Below, one piece after another: positions 45,508 through 53,999 of a stretch of 64,000 bases of DNA. The position numbers and the translations under genes were made by a program. The notes under the pieces are model-generated. The model did not search any database, had not been told where the DNA came from, and worked only from the letters and a program-made list of their open reading frames with translations. Source of the DNA: an uncultured Pseudomonadota bacterium (GTDB lineage: Bacteria > Myxococcota_A > UBA796 > SXON01). The first letter of the stretch is position 1. Each line of letters starts with the position of its first letter. The stretch is taken from NCBI GenBank assembly GCA_903875225.1, contig CAIQVJ010000124.1, positions 62,001-126,000 of the forward strand, given 5' to 3'.

Positions 45508-47070
45508 TTATTTCAGGACCCCACCGTACCGTGCAATACGGTCCCGGGCCGCGTGTTCGCCAGCCACCCGCCCGCCCAACACCACGGCAGACAAGGACCC
45601 GGTGAACCCGGCATCGCCCACCAGGCTGCCGCCCGCCATGCCCGTCAATTCACCCGCAGCGTAGAGCCCCGGGATCACTCGACCGTCCACCGCGAGCACC
45701 CGGCCCCGGATGTCCACGTCCACCCCTCCGAACATCTTGGCGACGGAGACGGCGACGGGCATTGCAAAGTAGGGCGGCTCGTCCACCGGCTGGGCGTTCT
45801 GCACCGAGGACCGGAACGTGTCCCCCTCCCCCGCATACACAGCCCGATCGTAGGCCTCGATGCTCGCCGACAAGGCCGACGAATCCACGTCGATCGTCTG
45901 ACCCAACGCGTCGAGGGAGTCGCCCCGCGCCGCGAACCCGTCGTCGACCATGTCGGTGATCGTGTAGGACATCCGGGCATCTGCACCATCGTCGCAGGTG
46001 AACGCGCCGGTGAGCGTATTGGTGTCGAAGACCATCCACGCCGCCTGGTGATCCACGACCGCCTCGGCCGTACGGAGGTCGTTCATGGCCGACTCGTCGA
46101 CGAAACGCTGTCCGGCGGGGTCCACCCAGGGCACGGCGAACTGGAAGGGCACCCGCATCTCGACGGTCGCATCGCTCGGGCAGCGCGAGGCATGGGCGTA
46201 CAGGCCCACCGCGGCGAGGTTCTGTGTCGCGGCCCCGAGCCCGGTCAACATCTCGAGCCCGTTGCCGTCCGCCCCGGACCAGGAGGCCCGCGTGAGCACC
46301 ACACCCTCGAGATCGGGCCGCGCCTCCCGCACCCTGTCGAGGTTCCAGCCGAACCCGCCGGTGGCCACCACCACGCCGCGCCCCCTCACCGTCCCGACCT
46401 CGTCGGTCTCCACGTCGCGCCATTGCACGCCGGTGACCCTTCCGGTCGCGTCCTGCTCGAGCCCGAGGGCTTCGACGCCCATCCAGATCACCTCCGGCGG
46501 CAGCTGCGCATGAAGCACGTCCACGAGCTCGGCCCCGCCCCCGCTGATCATGTGGATGCGCGGCGTGTCTCCACCCGAAGGGTCCAGTACGGGCGGGCCC
46601 CAGCCCAACCCCAGCCCCGCCAACCAGTCGTGCACCTCGGGGATGTTCGCGTTCGCAAAGCGCTGCACCCATTCGTCACTCACGTCCCCGCCCGTGATCG
46701 CCGGCCACTCCGCGAGGAGCTGCTCCGGCGAGTCCTCGATGCCGGCCGCAGCCTCTTCCGTCGAGCCGCTGAACAACATGAGGGCCGCCTGATTCGCCGC
46801 CCCGCCCACGGTGTCGGCATCGCGCTCCAGCAGAACCACCTGCGCCCCTGCGGCCCGCGCCTCGATGGCGGCGGACATCCCCGCGACCCCCGCGCCAATC
46901 ACGATCACCCGGTTCGGCACCGGGTCGGGCTGCGTCGGGCCGGCGCCCGTGTCGCCCCGGGCCGGCTCCAGCGAGGGAACAGGCAAGCCGGCGCTCGCCA
47001 GTCGGGTTGGGCTCCCCGACACACCGTCAGGTGGGCGGCAAGCCAGGAGGCAGAGGAGCAGCACAACCAA
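45508..47070 (-). CDS. Lipoprotein FAD-dependent oxidoreductase (fumarate reductase-like)
   Basis: 520 residues from a TTG at 47070; start codon uncertain. Short lipoprotein signal VVLLLCLLACRPP (lipobox LLAC), a Pro/Thr/Gly linker, then dinucleotide-binding VIVIGAGVAGMSAAIEARAAG with an acidic LLERD. VVVATGGFGWNLDRV, WSGADGNGLEMLTGLG and C-terminal GLYAAGELTGMAGGSLVGDAG fit the FrdA/KstD-type flavoproteins. FrdA-like active-site residues cannot be assigned by eye. Exported as folded only if Tat; here the signal looks Sec/lipoprotein-type, so FAD would be loaded outside. Confidence 0.82.
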   Translation of the reverse strand: MVVLLLCLLACRPPDGVSGSPTRLASAGLPVPSLEPARGDTGAGPTQPDPVPNRVIVIGAGVAGMSAAIEARAAGAQVVLLERDADTVGGAANQAALMLFSGSTEEAAAGIEDSPEQLLAEWPAITGGDVSDEWVQRFANANIPEVHDWLAGLGLGWGPPVLDPSGGDTPRIHMISGGGAELVDVLHAQLPPEVIWMGVEALGLEQDATGRVTGVQWRDVETDEVGTVRGRGVVVATGGFGWNLDRVREARPDLEGVVLTRASWSGADGNGLEMLTGLGAATQNLAAVGLYAHASRCPSDATVEMRVPFQFAVPWVDPAGQRFVDESAMNDLRTAEAVVDHQAAWMVFDTNTLTGAFTCDDGADARMSYTITDMVDDGFAARGDSLDALGQTIDVDSSALSASIEAYDRAVYAGEGDTFRSSVQNAQPVDEPPYFAMPVAVSVAKMFGGVDVDIRGRVLAVDGRVIPGLYAAGELTGMAGGSLVGDAGFTGSLSAVVLGGRVAGEHAARDRIARYGGVLK

Positions 47071-47226
47071 AGTGTACAGGTGACGCCTGACGTTCTCAAG
47101 TCGCCTCGCGCGGGTTTGGCGCCCTGGACTACCGGATCAGCAGCAAGTCAGCTCGATCAGCACAGGAACCCGTTCCGCCGCCGCGCAGCCCGTCCCGAAC
47201 ATGTCATTCCGGGGGTAGCACCGGGC

Positions 47227-48765
47227 TCAGATCCCGACCCCCATCGCCAATGTGAGCTGCGCGGTCCACCCCACGTGCGCGACACCAGCGTCGGTGTACC
47301 ACAGGGCCCCACCGCTGCCCGCGAGACGTGCCCATGCAAAGCCGGGAGGGGTCCATGCGACGGCGAGCACGGGCACCGGCGTGATGGTCGGCGAGAGCAG
47401 GGGGGGATCCCCCGCTGCCTGCAACAACCAGCCCTGGAGGCCCACCCCGGCGCGCAATTGGACGGTGCCCGGGGCGAAGGGGCGCTCCACCACGAGGCTG
47501 CCGGAGAGCGTCGGCTGCGGCCACCGCAGCGTCGTCGACCCCTGCCCCACCACCTCCCAGGCGCCGCCCAGCAGCCGCGGCAGGTGGGCCTCCGCGAAGA
47601 TCAACGGTGCGCTCGCCGGTCCGACGCCGAAGCCGACTGCACCCCCACCGGCGCCAAACCGGACGTGGTCGCGCCCCAGCACCGACTCGATGTCCACGCG
47701 ACGGCCCGAGGCGACGTTCACGCGCTGCCGGGCGACGACCGGACCCTCATTGGGCGCCACCAGCTCCAACCGGTGCGCCCCCGGATCGAGCACCACCTGA
47801 CCGGGGAGCACCCCCTTGTCCTGCCCGTCCACCCGCACCCCGTAGCCATCGAGCGAGCGCCGGTAGCTCGCTGCCAGGGCCGCTCCCGGCTGCGCCCTCG
47901 CGCCCGAGAGGATGATCGGGTCCTCCCCGAGCACCTCCGCCCGGGCCCACGCCCGCTGCGTGCCGCCGGTATAGGCGAACGCGGCCGTACGGGCGTATTC
48001 GTGGGCCTCTGTCACGGTCACGGCGCCGTCCGCGTCGGCGTCTCCGGGGTACCGAGCGGTGTCCGGGCGCGGCTGCAACGCCTCCAGGAAATACGCGGTG
48101 TACACGTCGTGGCCAAGCTGCGACGACTCGCGCGCGGTCTCGGAGAACGCGCAGACCCCGATCACGATCGTGGCCTCGGAGACCGAGTACAGCGGCACAA
48201 TCGGGTCGCCCTTGGTGCTCGCCAGCTGATCCCGTACGTCGGCCGGCAGGGCACTCTTGCCCTGGCCCGAGTGACAGGTCGCGAACACTGCGACCTTCTG
48301 ACGCGACGGCAAGCCGTCGAGCCAGGTGACGACCTCCGCCTGGGGCACAGCCGTGCGGGCGACAGCGTCGAGACGCGTGTCCGACGCCACGACGAACGGC
48401 GCAAGGCGCCCGTCGGATCCATGGGCGAGCGTGCCGTGCGAGGACACGTAGACGAAGACCGTGTCCTCGGGTGAATCCGCGATGGCGCCGATCTCGGCCA
48501 TCGCGTCCCGGATGCCGTCCGCCGAGGTTGCCACGGGATCGGTGAGGGTCCAGACCCGGTCGAAGTGCCCGTCCTCCATGAGCGCGTCGGAGACGGCCTC
48601 CGCGTCGTCGTCCGCGAACTGAAGCGCGGGGAAAGCCGGATCGGCGAAGGACTCCGGGCCGATCACCAGCGCCAGGCGCTCCCCGCGGAACGCGGCGTCC
48701 CCGCCCGCAGGCGGCGGAAGCCGGACGGCACCGGCGAGGGCGATCGCGACGTACGCGAGGATCAC
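47227..48765 (-). CDS. Exported caspase-like (C14) protease with C-terminal envelope domain
   Basis: 512 residues from a GTG at 48765 that overlaps the anti-sigma stop (GTGA). Signal-like start VILAYVAIALAGAVRLP, then a caspase fold with catalytic His110 in VYVSSHGTLAHG and Cys164 in VFATCHSGQGKS, both intact. Later, a short YGVRVDGQDKGVLPG region resembles a PEGA domain, followed by beta-rich, porin-like sequence to the C-terminus (LVVERPFAPGTVQLRAGVGLQGWLL). Orthocaspases usually cut after Arg/Lys; specificity here is unknown. Gene is coupled to an ECF sigma/anti-sigma pair. Confidence 0.85.
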   Translation of the reverse strand: MILAYVAIALAGAVRLPPPAGGDAAFRGERLALVIGPESFADPAFPALQFADDDAEAVSDALMEDGHFDRVWTLTDPVATSADGIRDAMAEIGAIADSPEDTVFVYVSSHGTLAHGSDGRLAPFVVASDTRLDAVARTAVPQAEVVTWLDGLPSRQKVAVFATCHSGQGKSALPADVRDQLASTKGDPIVPLYSVSEATIVIGVCAFSETARESSQLGHDVYTAYFLEALQPRPDTARYPGDADADGAVTVTEAHEYARTAAFAYTGGTQRAWARAEVLGEDPIILSGARAQPGAALAASYRRSLDGYGVRVDGQDKGVLPGQVVLDPGAHRLELVAPNEGPVVARQRVNVASGRRVDIESVLGRDHVRFGAGGGAVGFGVGPASAPLIFAEAHLPRLLGGAWEVVGQGSTTLRWPQPTLSGSLVVERPFAPGTVQLRAGVGLQGWLLQAAGDPPLLSPTITPVPVLAVAWTPPGFAWARLAGSGGALWYTDAGVAHVGWTAQLTLAMGVGI

Positions 48766-49481
48766 GGTCCGACCTCGAGGCGCACGGCGTCGAAGCGCGT
48801 GCCCGCCGTGCCGTCCGGCCACTCCGACATCACGGTCGCCAGGGGTAGGGGCCCGGCCGTCACGCCTGCCACCAGCGTGACGGGCCCCGGCACATCGTCC
48901 AGGGCCAGGGCCAACCAGTCCCCTTCCCAGGTGGCTGGCCGCGCACCCGCGGCCTCGACCACGGCGGACTGCCCCTCGGGCGGCATCAGCACGTGCCGCC
49001 GACCCGCCCCGTCCACGGCGAACAGGTAGCGGGCGCCTGGGCCGTCGGTCTCGATCTCGGCGACCACCACGGCGTCGGGGCCGACCCGGTCGCCCTCGTG
49101 CAGCCGCGCTCCGGCCACACCCCCGTGGGTGAGCGCGAGCGTGAGGTGCACCGCGGGCGCGGTTGCCCTGCCCTTCTCCACGAGCTCATCGCGGGGCGGT
49201 CGCGTCGCCACCGCAAAGAATGCCACCGCGGCAACCGCCAGGGCAAACCCCAGGAAGCGCTGGGTGTTGGAGCCCCGGCGGGCGGACGGGAGGCGCAACG
49301 GCGGGGGGGTGACCGGCGGCGCGTCTTCGGCCTCGAGCAGCCTCGCGAGCGTGTCGTCGTCGAGCAGGGCGGCACACTCCTCGCACGTGTCGAGGTGATC
49401 GAGCAGTGCGGCGCGGGCGGGCTCGGCGAGCGTGCCGGCGAGCCAGTCGTCAAGCTGGCTGCGGGTCAGGTGGGTGCTCAT
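48762..49481 (-). CDS. Membrane anti-sigma factor (zinc-finger ZAS-like)
   Basis: 239 residues from the ATG at 49481 overlapping the sigma-factor stop (ATGA). N-terminal LDDWLAGTLAEPARAALLDHLDTCEECAALL contains the HxxxCxxC of the zinc anti-sigma domain. One membrane helix (FLGFALAVAAVAFFAVA) follows, then a periplasmic beta-rich domain (VVVAEIETDGPGARYLFAVDGAG). Likely holds the adjacent ECF factor until a periplasmic signal arrives. Confidence 0.88.
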   Translation of the reverse strand: MSTHLTRSQLDDWLAGTLAEPARAALLDHLDTCEECAALLDDDTLARLLEAEDAPPVTPPPLRLPSARRGSNTQRFLGFALAVAAVAFFAVATRPPRDELVEKGRATAPAVHLTLALTHGGVAGARLHEGDRVGPDAVVVAEIETDGPGARYLFAVDGAGRRHVLMPPEGQSAVVEAAGARPATWEGDWLALALDDVPGPVTLVAGVTAGPLPLATVMSEWPDGTAGTRFDAVRLEVGP

Positions 49482-50047
49482 CCGGCTTCCTCCCAGAGTG
49501 TATCGAGGCGGCGGGCGGCGTAGACCCGGGCCCAGAGGCGGAACCGGTGCAATCGTGTCGTCACTGCGGTGACCGTCACGCCCATGCGCTCGGCGATCTC
49601 GCCCGTCGAGGCCGGGGGATCGCCGTAGAACAGCGACGCGGTCTCCTTCAGCACGGCGTCCGGGCAGCCGTCCAGGACCATACGCCCCAGGTGGTCCCGG
49701 TCCGACGAGGGCACGGGCGGCGGCTCTGCCTTCCACGTCGAGAGTGCATCGGCCTCGCGTCGGCGGGTCTCCAGCCAGTGCAGGCAACGACGACGGGCGA
49801 TCACGCGCACCCAGCCGGGGAACGCGCCATCGTCCTGCAGATCGGGGAGTGCCGCGAACGCGGCGGCGAAGCTGTCCTGGCAGAGGTCGTCCGCCGAGGC
49901 CTTGTCCCCGCGGCAGAACGTGAGGCAGTAGCCGTACACCGCGGGGGCGTGCGTGGCGTAGAGCTCACGCCATGCCGCCGCGTCGCCGCGTCGAGCCCGG
50001 GTGATCAGGAGGGAGGAAGGGGGCATCCAGCGGCCAAGCGCTACCAT
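49478..50047 (-). CDS. ECF-type RNA polymerase sigma factor
   Basis: 189 residues from the ATG at 50047, preceded by GGAG. Sigma2: ARRGDAAAWRELYATHAPAVYGYC to DDLCQDSFAAAFAAL; sigma4: GEIAERMGVTVTAVTTRLHRFRLWARVYAA. Length is normal for ECF factors. Transcribed with its anti-sigma and a caspase-like protease. The promoter recognised is unknown. An alternative start is the ATG at 50026. Confidence 0.9.
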   Translation of the reverse strand: MVALGRWMPPSSLLITRARRGDAAAWRELYATHAPAVYGYCLTFCRGDKASADDLCQDSFAAAFAALPDLQDDGAFPGWVRVIARRRCLHWLETRRREADALSTWKAEPPPVPSSDRDHLGRMVLDGCPDAVLKETASLFYGDPPASTGEIAERMGVTVTAVTTRLHRFRLWARVYAARRLDTLWEEAG

Positions 50048-50105: not shown

Positions 50106-50516
50106 TCACATGCGGACCGAGAGCCCGAGGCCGACCTGAAGCTCGGGCGCCTCGCCCCAGGGCACCACACCGTCCACTCGGGCCTGCAGCCCCAGCCCCC
50201 AGAACATGAGCCAGCCCGCGCGTACGCCAGCCCGCGCGGCGAGCCGGGGGTCCCCGAACGCGTCATGCACCTCGGGCATGAGCGCCACGCCCAGCCGGAC
50301 CCAGCGGCTGTCGACCGGCAGGAGCAGCAGGCCCGCCGCGGCGGAAGCCCGTCCGTCGAGGTCCGCGCCGATCTCCCCGGCGACGCCCAGGTGGCGCACG
50401 ACGCCGTAGTCGGCAGCCCCGTGAAAGGCTGGGGCCGTGCCGTCGAGGCCGGCGGAGAGGGAAGCGGTGACACGGTTGGGCTCCGCGTGGGCGAGTTGGA
50501 ACAGGAACAGGATCAT
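50106..50516 (-). CDS. Small outer-membrane-type beta protein
   Basis: 136 residues from the ATG at 50516 (ATGA overlap with the mini-protein gene). Signal peptide MILFLFQLAHAEP, then alternating hydrophobic strands (VTASLSAGLDGTAPAFHGAA, WLMFWGLGLQARVDGVVPW) ending in LQVGLGLSVRM, compatible with a small beta-barrel. Function not recognised. Fourth gene of a chained operon. Confidence 0.7.
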   Translation of the reverse strand: MILFLFQLAHAEPNRVTASLSAGLDGTAPAFHGAADYGVVRHLGVAGEIGADLDGRASAAAGLLLLPVDSRWVRLGVALMPEVHDAFGDPRLAARAGVRAGWLMFWGLGLQARVDGVVPWGEAPELQVGLGLSVRM

Positions 50517-50704
50517 TGGATCTCCTCGAGGGTTGGGGAACGAAGGGCGAGCGCACAGATGCCGGGCTGCTTGTCGCCAGGGCGGTGGTGTCGACAACCC
50601 GTGTGTGGGCAGGCACGGCGGGGGGCGACGTGGGCCTCCGCGGGCCCCGTGGCGACGAGCGCGGCGGCGGCGCAGCCCATCGCGAAGACGTCTCGCCGGG
50701 TCAT
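50513..50704 (-). CDS. 63-residue exported Cys/His mini-protein
   Basis: From the ATG at 50704, overlapping the lipocalin gene stop (ATGA) and ending in an ATGA overlap with the next gene, so its reading frame is locked between two coupled genes. The N-terminus MTRRDVFAMGCAAAALVATGPAEA looks like a Tat-type signal with an AEA cleavage site. The mature part of about 38 residues has CPHTGCRHHRPGDKQPGIC, a compact Cys/His set suited to metal or disulfide. No family recognised. Confidence 0.7.
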   Translation of the reverse strand: MTRRDVFAMGCAAAALVATGPAEAHVAPRRACPHTGCRHHRPGDKQPGICALALRSPTLEEIQ

Positions 50705-51852
50705 GGTTGCTCCTCGGTCTCCGAGCCGAACTCGATGGTGTAGGGCACCAGGCTCTCGCTCGCCATCGGCGCAAGCTGACCGACCGGGTCATCCACCTCA
50801 CCGGGGGGCGCTGCGGAGTGGTACAGGCCCCGGAACAGGGGGGCGTCCGCGCCCACCTGCTCTGCGAACCCGAGCACGCTCACGTCGGAGCCGTCCACCG
50901 TACCGGCAAACCGGGCCGGGCCGGCCCACATCGCGGCCGGGAAGACCCACAGCTCCTGATCCGTACGCTCGGCCTCGACCACGAAGTCGAAGGTCTCGCC
51001 GGTCACCTTCCACGCCACCGGCCACCGGGCGCCGCTGCGTCGGCTCTTCCACCACTGGGTCGGCTCCACGCGCATCTTCGTGGGGTCGATGGGCGTGATC
51101 TCCCCGTCCGGCGCGGACATCCAGGCCAGGGTGCCGGGTACGCCGCCCATCCCGTCGTTCTGGATCCACCCGATCGAGAGGTCGCGCCCGTCCGGCAGGT
51201 TCGCCGAGAACCACTCGAACCCGTCCACGTTGGGGTCGTAGAGCCGCCCCCACTGGTGCTTGCTGAACCCCACGCCCTCCACCTGCCGCACCTTGTTGCC
51301 CTCGATCCACCGCCCCTCGACGGCCATGCCCTCGTCCTGGTCCCACATGGACGTCGCGTGCGGCGCCAGCTGCACCCGTCCTCCAACTCCCGGGAGGGTT
51401 GGTGCTCTCGTCGGGGTCAGGCGTAGCTCGGTCCGCACCGGGCCCGCACCTGCCGAGAGCACGAGCGCGCCGCCCTCCTCGTGCAGCGACCAGTTGCCGT
51501 GGAACGGTCCGCCCTTCGAGAATCCGGCGGAGAAGAAGTCGGGAAAGCTCTCGCGGTCTGCAGTCCACGAGTGCTCGGGCGTGGCGACCCGGACGTACGC
51601 AGCGTGGAACGGGTTTGCGCCGAGCGGCACCGGCACGAGTGCGACCGTGTCGAGGTCCGTGCGCTCGACGACGAAGCCCACGAACACGTCGAGCGGCTCG
51701 CCCGTCGCGATGTCCTGCAGGCGGGCGTGGATGTGCCACCACTCCGTCTGGGCGTCGTCGTGCGGCCCGAAGTCGATGGTGGGGAGGACGAAGGCGCCCG
51801 GGGGGATCGCCTCGAGATGATGTGTGGCACAAGCGAGCAGAAAGAGAATCAT
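50701..51852 (-). CDS. CrtC/AttH-like lipocalin lipoprotein
   Basis: 383 residues from the ATG at 51852 (ATGA overlap). N-terminus MILFLLACATHH has a lipobox (LLAC). The EWWHIHARLQD motif and duplicated beta-rich halves (GFSKHQWGRLYDPNVDGFEWFSANL) are those of the hydroxyneurosporene synthase/carotenoid 1,2-hydratase and AttH group. With a desaturase-like neighbour, action on a carotenoid or other polyprenyl lipid is possible. As a lipoprotein it would act in the envelope, unlike CrtC. Confidence 0.8.
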   Translation of the reverse strand: MILFLLACATHHLEAIPPGAFVLPTIDFGPHDDAQTEWWHIHARLQDIATGEPLDVFVGFVVERTDLDTVALVPVPLGANPFHAAYVRVATPEHSWTADRESFPDFFSAGFSKGGPFHGNWSLHEEGGALVLSAGAGPVRTELRLTPTRAPTLPGVGGRVQLAPHATSMWDQDEGMAVEGRWIEGNKVRQVEGVGFSKHQWGRLYDPNVDGFEWFSANLPDGRDLSIGWIQNDGMGGVPGTLAWMSAPDGEITPIDPTKMRVEPTQWWKSRRSGARWPVAWKVTGETFDFVVEAERTDQELWVFPAAMWAGPARFAGTVDGSDVSVLGFAEQVGADAPLFRGLYHSAAPPGEVDDPVGQLAPMASESLVPYTIEFGSETEEQP

Positions 51853-53285
51853 GAGACACCTCGAAGGTCGTCATGGAGCGCTGCCACAGCCTGCCGGCCC
51901 GTGCGAACAGCGTTCTCCATGCAGGGAAAATCAAGCGGGGAGCGGATCCAGTCTCCAGCCAGGTACAGGCCGTGGACGGGGGTGCGGGTGAAGGGCTTGA
52001 ACACGAGCGAGCCCGGCTCGGAGTTCCAGTACCGACGATGCGGGCCGCGGCTGCGGACGACCGTGAAGTCGATGACCCCCTCGCGGTCGAAGCCCTCCCA
52101 ACCCGGGATCCGTCGAACGCCTGCCAGGGACTGCTGCAGCAGGCTCTCGTCGTCCATGTCCTCGAACCCGGCCTCCTGCCCGACAAAATGCAGCGACGCA
52201 CCAAACGATGGGTCATTCCGCAGGTGGGGATAGTTTGGCTTGTTGTCCACCACGAAGCCGAGCGGCTCGGGCAGGCCGCACACAACCGTACGTGGCCCCT
52301 CGGTCACGCTCGCCCGGTGCCACACCTGCATCGCGAGCGGCGCGACGGTGGTGATCCGCGGAATGCCGGACAGCCCGGGCACCTGCAGCGCCTCCGCAGG
52401 CAGCACGGCCTGCAGGCAAGGCGCCGGGAGCGCGAGGATCACGGCGTCGAAGTCGGTCATGCGCTCCTCGGGGCCCGTCGGCACCGGGCCCTGGTGGGGA
52501 CAGGACGGGGGGTGCGGGATGGGCGAGGCAAACCGCAGCGCCGTCACCCTGCCGCCCTCTACCTCCACCCCCGTCAACTTCCGCAACCGGATGATGGTGG
52601 AACCGAGCGACTGGATCCGCGCGGCCACCCGCTCCCACCAGATCTCGCTCATCCCACCTGCAGGAAACCGCGCCTCCGCCGTGTTGTAGTCGCGCCCCAT
52701 GATGCGAATGGCCTGGAGCATCGAGTAGGCCGAGATCTCCCCCGGCCAGTTGAGTTGGGCCTCGCGGGTGCACCGGAAGGCGTTGGTCGCCATCATGGAG
52801 GCGGGCAGGCCCCGCTCGGCGCACCACGCGGTGAGGCACAGGTCGTCGAGGTGCTCGGGCACCCCGGCGGCCAACTCGATCATGCCTCGGCTGAACACCG
52901 CTCCAAACGCGAGCTTCTCACCGAGCGTCATCCCCGTGTAGCGCAGACCCTCGAACAGCGTTCGCGGCGTAGAAGGGGTGAAGTGCAGGTGGTGCGCTGT
53001 TTCGTCGCGGTCCTCCCAGATGATGAACTCCATCCGGCCGGAGACCGAGGTCGCGCGCATGTCCACGCCGGACCGGTGCAACAGCGCGCGCATCTCGTCG
53101 TAGAACCCGGCCACGATGTGCTGCCCGTGCTCCACGACGCGGCCCTTGTCATCGCGCCAGGAGCACGCCTTGCCGCCCACGAGGTGGCCCATGCCCACGA
53201 GCGTGACCTCGTGGCCCGCGGTGGCGGCGGCCTCAGCGGCTGAGAGGCCTGCGGGGCCTGTTCCGACTACGACGACCTTTGCCAT
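51849..53285 (-). CDS. Carotenoid/hydroxysqualene desaturase-like FAD oxidoreductase
   Basis: 478 residues. Start VVVVGTGPAGLSAAEAAATAGHEVTLVG gives a dinucleotide-binding fold, then GGKACSWRDDKGRVVEHGQHIV, typical of phytoene desaturase/HpnE-like amine-oxidase family enzymes. C-terminal GLYLAGDWIRSPLDFPCMENAVRTGRQA is the FAD-binding end of this family. No signal peptide. First gene of the four-gene coupled operon; its leader contains GGGTTTCAAAATAC. Confidence 0.88.
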   Translation of the reverse strand: MAKVVVVGTGPAGLSAAEAAATAGHEVTLVGMGHLVGGKACSWRDDKGRVVEHGQHIVAGFYDEMRALLHRSGVDMRATSVSGRMEFIIWEDRDETAHHLHFTPSTPRTLFEGLRYTGMTLGEKLAFGAVFSRGMIELAAGVPEHLDDLCLTAWCAERGLPASMMATNAFRCTREAQLNWPGEISAYSMLQAIRIMGRDYNTAEARFPAGGMSEIWWERVAARIQSLGSTIIRLRKLTGVEVEGGRVTALRFASPIPHPPSCPHQGPVPTGPEERMTDFDAVILALPAPCLQAVLPAEALQVPGLSGIPRITTVAPLAMQVWHRASVTEGPRTVVCGLPEPLGFVVDNKPNYPHLRNDPSFGASLHFVGQEAGFEDMDDESLLQQSLAGVRRIPGWEGFDREGVIDFTVVRSRGPHRRYWNSEPGSLVFKPFTRTPVHGLYLAGDWIRSPLDFPCMENAVRTGRQAVAALHDDLRGVS

Positions 53286-53502
53286 TCACATCTCCGGGGT
53301 TCACGGAGAAGGAGCGTGGCCGGGGTCGGATGTCACAGGTATTTTGAAACCCGCCGAAAATTGTCGGAGACAGAGTTGGCGGGCTCTCGGGCAGGGTCGC
53401 GAGCGGGGATCCGCCGGTTGCCGCCCGTTGGGCCTCTCGCGGCAAGAAGGCGCTCTCCTCCACGTGATCCCGAGCATCGCGACCGTCGGGCAGCGCCACC
53501 GA

Positions 53503-53564
53503 CCGACCGTTCGCCACCTGGATGCACAGGACGCCGACCGCTCGCCACCTGGATGCACAGGACG
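53503..53564 (-). repeat. Two 31-bp tandem repeats, family A
   Basis: Units 53503-53533 and 53534-53564 differ at only one base. Each contains CGCCACCTGGATGCACAGGA. The reverse complement of family B matches this unit at 18 of 31 positions, mainly at CTGTGCA and CGGTC blocks, so A and B are diverged copies in opposite orientation. Confidence 0.85.
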
Positions 53565-53645
53565 CCCGCTGGCCCCGAGCTCCGGATCCGACAAGCGCCA
53601 GTAATTTCGATCCGCGCGGCTACCCACGGACCCGCGGGGCCCCCC

Positions 53646-53769
53646 GGCTGTGCACTCGACACCCGATCGGTCCGCCGGCTGTGCACTCGACACCCGATCG
53701 GTCCACCGGCTGTGCAGTCGACCCCCGATCGGTCCGCCGGCTGTGCACTCGACACCCGGCCGGTCGCAA
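53646..53769 (+). repeat. Four 31-bp tandem repeats, family B
   Basis: Units start at 53646, 53677, 53708 and 53739, contiguous with no spacer. Units 1-3 differ at one to three positions; unit 4 decays at its right end. Each contains palindromes GTGCAC and CCGATCGG (unit 3 has GTGCAG). No coding sense. Confidence 0.9.
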
Positions 53770-53821
53770 CCGTCGAGGTCCGCTACGGCCCCCTCGCCCG
53801 CTCGAACCCCGATCCTGCGCG

Positions 53822-53999
53822 GTGCTCCTCACCCTGCTCCCGATGCTCCTCATCGCCCTCGCGTGTGCCGCCCCGCTCCCGGTGCTGCCCCGCGGGGAGG
53901 ACCCGACGCGCTGGCACACCCCTCGATCTGCTCGCGGGCGAGCCCCGGATCGACGTCTCGGACCTCGGCGCCCACTGGTACGACACATCCGAGGCGTGA
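53822..53999 (+). pseudogene. Frameshifted mini-lipoprotein
   Basis: From the GTG at 53822, LLTLLPMLLIALACAAPLPV is a clear lipoprotein signal (lipobox LALAC-type) followed by RGEDPTRWHT. The frame is then lost near the CCCC run at about 53921. The alternative frame continues with LDLLAGEPRIDVSDLGAHWYDTSEA and a stop at 53999. Joining the two gives a small lipoprotein of about 59 residues. Either a pseudogene or a sequence error. Family unknown. Confidence 0.55.

Follow-up and report, generated by a model that had tools for sequence, protein, structure and literature searches.

A three-gene unit encoding an ECF sigma factor, a zinc-finger membrane anti-sigma factor and an exported caspase-like protease was found in the window, the whole 64-kb stretch of DNA analysed here, and it probably represents a self-contained envelope-to-nucleoid signalling cassette in which the caspase is the activator and acts as site-1 protease on its own anti-sigma factor. 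The original prediction had named the protease as either output or activator of the regulatory pair; the comparative evidence favours the activator and adds a specific predicted bond. What was established directly is the order of the genes and how far it is conserved, the invariance of the catalytic and acidic residues, and the match between the motifs of the two proteins. The features are compiled in Table 1.

Table 1 Features of the trio and its upstream neighbours in the window; a slash marks a predicted bond
Feature	Position	Strand	Evidence
ECF sigma factor, 189 aa	49478..50047	-	Pfam Sigma70_r2 1.3e-13; TIGR02937 51.6 bits
Zinc-finger membrane anti-sigma factor, 239 aa	48762..49481	-	zf-HC2; aligned family A1
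HxxxCxxC zinc motif (H29-x3-C33-x2-C36)	49374..49397	-	sequence; zf-HC2
Predicted TM helix, residues 76-92	49206..49256	-	hydropathy maximum 2.56
Predicted site-1 cleavage bond K103-G104 (ELVEK/GRAT), anti-sigma factor	49170..49175	-	alignment column, 93/95
Exported caspase-like protease, 512 aa, GTG start	47227..48765	-	Peptidase_C14 36.4 bits
Signal-peptide-like N-terminus, residues 1-11, A-x-A-G end	48733..48765	-	A11 and G12 each conserved 36/40
Asp54, predicted S1-pocket Asp	48604..48606	-	invariant 87/87; region of 'NDAH' motif in solved metacaspases
Catalytic His110	48436..48438	-	invariant 87/87 trios
Catalytic Cys164	48274..48276	-	invariant 87/87 trios
Predicted self-processing bond K185-G186 (ASTK/GDP), post-Cys loop	48208..48213	-	loop motif in 74/87
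Glu213, acidic residue, possibly S1 pocket	48127..48129	-	invariant 87/87
PEGA/Ig-like beta region, residues 301-362 (about)	47680..47865	-	pLDDT 52-75 in this block only; no Pfam match
Gly-rich C-terminal region, residues 365-512, possible outer-membrane beta-barrel	47230..47673	-	conserved in window clade; model unreliable
Small barrel-like secreted protein, 136 aa, upstream of sigma	50106..50516	-	homologues upstream in L036, L037, L040, L041, L042, L043
CrtC/Lipocalin_9 lipoprotein, possible target gene	50701..51852	-	Pfam 1.7e-17; syntenic in L037, L040, L042, L043
FAD amine-oxidase/desaturase (HpnE or phytoene-desaturase-like)	51849..53285	-	Pfam 2.9e-26; HpnE 130 bits, under cut-off; syntenic in L037, L040, L042, L043

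All three genes are located on the minus strand, and the gene order, the coordinates and the two overlaps reported originally, ATGA between the sigma and anti-sigma genes and GTGA between the anti-sigma and caspase genes, were confirmed from the sequence. The sigma gene has a second possible start at 50026. An alternative GTG further upstream of the caspase gene (48822) would add a basic n-region; in the relatives, the start lies mostly at the overlap and not at the upstream GTG. A shared promoter motif upstream of the sigma gene was not evident by eye in the window clade, and the single promoter-like match between 46900 and 50700 is located downstream of the trio (47071-47099). Region 2 of the sigma factor was recognised by PF04542 with 50.9 bits (cut-off 24) and residues 25-174 were matched by TIGR02937, which spans regions 2-4 (cut-off 42.9 bits); region 4 scored 22.1 bits with PF08281, under the cut-off of 25.7, with half of the model covered. 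The anti-sigma factor has the features of a class I zinc anti-sigma factor, a zf-HC2 domain (Pfam, 3.6e-6, 27.4 bits, cut-off 22.2), the HxxxCxxC motif and one TM helix. The caspase-linked anti-sigma factors are strongly diverged, with a mean column identity of 23%, and in paralogue clade 2 (L045-L075) most of them are without HxxxCxxC, the TM helix and an Arg-Gly site being kept. DUF4384 was considered for the periplasmic part of this protein and dropped, one of 30 members having matched (E 0.0016).

When 94 relatives were searched with the caspase as query, orthologues with 43-57% identity, mostly full-length, and paralogues with about 35% were found. In this first set, the sigma and anti-sigma genes precede the caspase gene in the same order wherever the contig reaches far enough upstream. 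The order was found in 87 trios of the first collection and later in 36 further trios across the phylum; this conservation is far above chance. With the anti-sigma family as query, nearly every homologue was found to lie in such a trio, and this search revealed a third caspase clade, whose anti-sigma profile matches 140 of the 284 genomes of the phylum, probably the Myxococcota. The distance matrices of the 87 full trios correlated with r values of 0.915 (sigma-caspase), 0.817 (sigma-anti-sigma) and 0.777 (anti-sigma-caspase). The window's genome contains at least three trios (contigs C124, C132 and C35). In another genome (G068), two complete trios are located in tandem (L073:1358-7459); in one of them both proteins have a Lys site, in the other both have an Arg site. 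Plasmid records, when searched, contained distant caspases only.

The genes around the trio are conserved as well, but differ between clades. In the window clade they are the genes upstream of sigma listed in Table 1, of which the one encoding the 136-aa protein had no Pfam match. In paralogue clade 2, an apolipoprotein N-acyltransferase is encoded upstream and an anchor-D lipoprotein downstream, and in clade 3 a conserved lipoprotein is encoded downstream. Downstream of the window's caspase gene lies a gene for an FAD-binding flavocytochrome-c-like protein with a lipoprotein-like N-terminus (45508-47070, minus strand), which has no homologue among the genes conserved downstream of the trio in the window clade. 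Beyond the desaturase gene, overlapping open reading frames on both strands (53316-53999) encode repeated peptides (e.g. RRLCTRHPIGPPAV), pointing to a short tandem repeat in the DNA. That other clades have other conserved neighbours means that the trio can sit among effector genes, and this would suit a caspase that is a mere output of the sigma regulon, an envelope stress protease, with another protease cutting the anti-sigma factor. The overlapping genes, which imply co-expression, and the many caspases found without this sigma/anti-sigma pair point the same way; what this explanation leaves aside is taken up below with the cleavage motifs. A toxin-like or cell-death module, in which the caspase kills or lyses the producer or its neighbours and the sigma/anti-sigma pair is a safety lock, is highly improbable: myxobacteria do undergo programmed cell death and a metacaspase role in autolysis has been suggested (PMC3501461), but neither an immunity gene nor a toxin-like partner was found, and several parallel trios per genome, with differing C-terminal domains and neighbours, look rather like a sensor set.

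The protease itself matched Peptidase_C14 of Pfam (5.8e-9, cut-off 21.4 bits) and, with 63.7 bits, the profile of EACC1-associated caspases (NF047832), under its curated cut-off of 140. By sequence, metacaspases matched best; by fold, the best matches were a bacterial homologue of caspases and MALT1, a paracaspase specific for Arg. The fold search rests on a poor model, built from a two-sequence alignment (window protein and L035; mean pLDDT 42), and is used as weak support. The His-Cys pair noted originally is intact (H110/C164) and invariant in the 87 trios, as are Asp54, Glu213 and D242. The invariance of Asp54 and Glu213 fits the need of a pocket for a basic P1 residue. In TbMC2, the pocket aspartates are D95 and D211 (PMC6426788); the counterpart of the first is D54, found in all 87 trios, and the position of the second, two residues before the Cys, is occupied by Asp in 78 of the 87 and by Ala in the window clade. 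The protease is probably exported, as proposed originally, judged from its hydrophobic, signal-peptide-like N-terminus with the conserved A-x-A-G, although the n-region is free of Lys and Arg. The envelope-type C-terminal domain of the original prediction fared less well: the PEGA/Ig-like stretch and the Gly-rich, barrel-like tail hint at it, but the barrel was not confirmed in the model, and the C-terminal region had no match in Pfam. This region differs from clade to clade and may serve in sensing or as an anchor in the outer membrane; the last residue is F, W or Y in 32 of 89 trio proteases and Ile in the window protein. An FRG motif directly before the caspase domain (R27-G28) in the window clade was not counted as a site.

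A basic residue followed by a small one marks a single position in the anti-sigma factors. At one aligned column after the TM helix, 93 of 95 caspase-linked anti-sigma factors (the exceptions being L119 and L127) carry Lys or Arg followed by Gly (87), Ser (4) or Ala (2), against a median incidence of 24% at the other columns, and two of seven anti-sigma homologues without a caspase have the site there. It lies at a median distance of 13 residues from the hydrophobic core, and K103-G104 of the window protein about 11 residues outside the membrane. The predicted bond is placed where known site-1 proteases act and is compatible with regulated intramembrane proteolysis. Counted independently of the column, Lys/Arg-Gly was present within 45 residues of the TM helix in 68 of 78 linked versus one of seven unlinked anti-sigma factors (Fisher p 1.1e-4), with 47% in shuffled linkers and 24% in later blocks of the same proteins, numbers to be read with the shortness of the motif and the non-independence of sequences inside one clade in mind. 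Two of seven zf-HC2 anti-sigma factors with a TM helix and no caspase have the dipeptide in these 45 residues, at other positions. In the later set of 35 trios, mostly from other families, 29 of 34 anti-sigma factors have an Arg two residues before the P1 residue, most linkers reading R-x-K followed by Gly, Ser or Ala, with a mild bias from the A5 profile that found this set and includes the motif column; L229 is without the site, and R-x-K-G is present in the linkers of L208, L211 and L231, which were read. At one locus (L220:1-6501), genes for a sigma factor and for an anti-sigma factor that has the site (TREKGSA) are followed by no caspase gene over the next 2.8 kb; the protease of this pair may be encoded in another part of the genome.

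The same dipeptide is found in the protease. The loop after the catalytic Cys contains Lys/Arg-Gly in 74 of the 87 trio proteases (background 27%), and most of the others are lipoproteins with Lys/Arg-Gly in the stretch that joins the lipidated Cys to the caspase domain (TRVKGF, QRDKGF, WRNKGF, LQPRGF and others). This tether site was present in 13 of 13 lipobox proteases matched by regular expression, in L074 and in the lipoprotein cases fetched later (L185, L186, L193 and L194); the lipoprotein clade is approximately one lineage plus L044 and so amounts to about two independent cases, and the eight lipoprotein controls for the motif background are too few to rely on. The group L187-L191 has no self-site. 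In the later set, 32 of 34 loops have the Arg two residues before P1, and most loops read T-R-x-K-G. Since caspases without the sigma/anti-sigma pair also have it frequently (23 of 44, in a set with a few contig-end trio members), the loop site reflects specificity and not pairing.

The two sites agree clade by clade. The position before the bond is occupied by Lys in clade 1, that of the window (9/9 anti-sigma factors, 8/8 loops), by Arg in clade 2 (26/28 and 27/27) and by Lys in clade 3 (30/34 and 30/32). Only in clade 3 do both proteins often have an Arg two residues before this position (23/34 and 28/32). Single P1 mismatches between partners (L049, L065, L116, L120, L124 and L186) are to be expected if the protease accepts both basic residues. 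The simplest reading of these motifs, as predicted from the aligned sequences, is that a single specificity serves for two substrates, namely the protease's own chain and the anti-sigma factor. A caspase that is only an output of the regulon leaves both the juxtamembrane Lys/Arg-Gly of the linked anti-sigma factors and the clade-wise agreement of P1 and P3 with the protease's own site unexplained, and we consider that role unlikely. It is quite improbable, too, that Lys/Arg-Gly is a docking or structural element through which the caspase binds the anti-sigma factor, is regulated by it or co-senses with it, without a cut. The motif does lie at the edge of a conserved beta domain, with a Gly that is near-invariant in the alignments, but the matching dipeptide in the protease has a different structural context, a loop or a lipid tether, and cutting after Arg or Lys is a known activity of non-animal caspase homologues (PMC6426788, PMC3501461).

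Taking the caspase as activator, we infer proteolytic activity, its specificity, both cleavages, site-2 processing, the regulon and a trigger. The protease would be a Lys/Arg-specific caspase that processes itself and serves as site-1 protease on its own anti-sigma factor. In this model, the anti-sigma factor would keep the ECF sigma factor at the inner membrane, and the exported protease would reside in the periplasm, perhaps held at the outer membrane through its C-terminal domain, with a specificity for Lys/Arg followed by Gly, Ser or Ala. On activation, it would process its own loop at K185-G186 and cleave the anti-sigma factor between K103 and G104. The latter would be the site-1 step of regulated intramembrane proteolysis, after which a general site-2 protease and cytoplasmic proteases would free the sigma factor. 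The freed sigma factor would probably drive transcription of its own operon, and perhaps also of the neighbouring genes for the CrtC-like protein and the desaturase.

There is about an even chance that the trio proteases form a new site-1 protease class in bacteria, made up of exported caspases of the type of MALT1 and the metacaspases, each encoded beside an ECF sigma and an anti-sigma factor of its own. In such a class, self-site and anti-sigma site would have co-evolved, and each trio would be an insulated line, several of which could run in parallel in one genome. The role of bacterial caspase homologues is a long-standing question, and one large family gains a predicted substrate, bond and pathway; if the model is true, caspase-family proteases are direct transcription activators in bacteria. 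With several trios per genome and lineage-specific cut sequences, they would also be a natural case for how parallel lines avoid cross-talk.

In systems of the DegS-RseA-RpoE type, the site-1 protease is a serine protease encoded elsewhere. The trio shares with these and other site-1 systems a membrane anti-sigma factor and a periplasmic juxtamembrane site-1 cut, here predicted, but the cut would be made by a cysteine protease of clan CD whose gene lies together with those of its own sigma pair. With MALT1, metacaspases and orthocaspases, the trio protease has in common the caspase fold, the His-Cys dyad and, as predictions, the basic-residue pocket and self-processing: MALT1 cuts after Arg, also at its own N-terminal site (PMC11165066), and orthocaspases self-process (PMC5756287). 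Unlike these, it is probably exported, has a possible envelope-type C-terminal region and is paired with an ECF pathway. The EACC1/EACC2 systems have a caspase domain related by profile, in some with an ECF sigma neighbour (Kaur 2021, PMC8195603), but the trio protease is below the family cut-off, no EACC domain was recognised, and it is exported and comes with a membrane anti-sigma factor. In the ECF54 context, CHAT-type caspases occur and protease control of the ECF sigma factor has been proposed (PMC8999054); there, an anti-sigma factor is missing and the protease is proposed to act on the sigma factor directly. In the open-access literature, no paper was found that links a caspase to the cleavage of an anti-sigma factor.

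The view that the arrangement matches no nameable system was only partly right. Operons of sigma-70 and metacaspase genes were reported in 2012 from Myxococcus (including M. xanthus), Anaeromyxobacter, Haliangium, Sorangium, Ralstonia and Fibrobacter (Asplund-Samuelsson 2012, PMC3501461), and they likewise combine a caspase-family gene with sigma-70 in the same broad bacterial group. Compared by description and not by gene sequence, they and the trio are very probably the same kind of unit. This association, vague so far, becomes testable with point mutants: the 2012 survey names no anti-sigma factor, export, cut site or mechanism, whereas the trio combines a membrane anti-sigma factor and a probably exported protease with a predicted bond in each.
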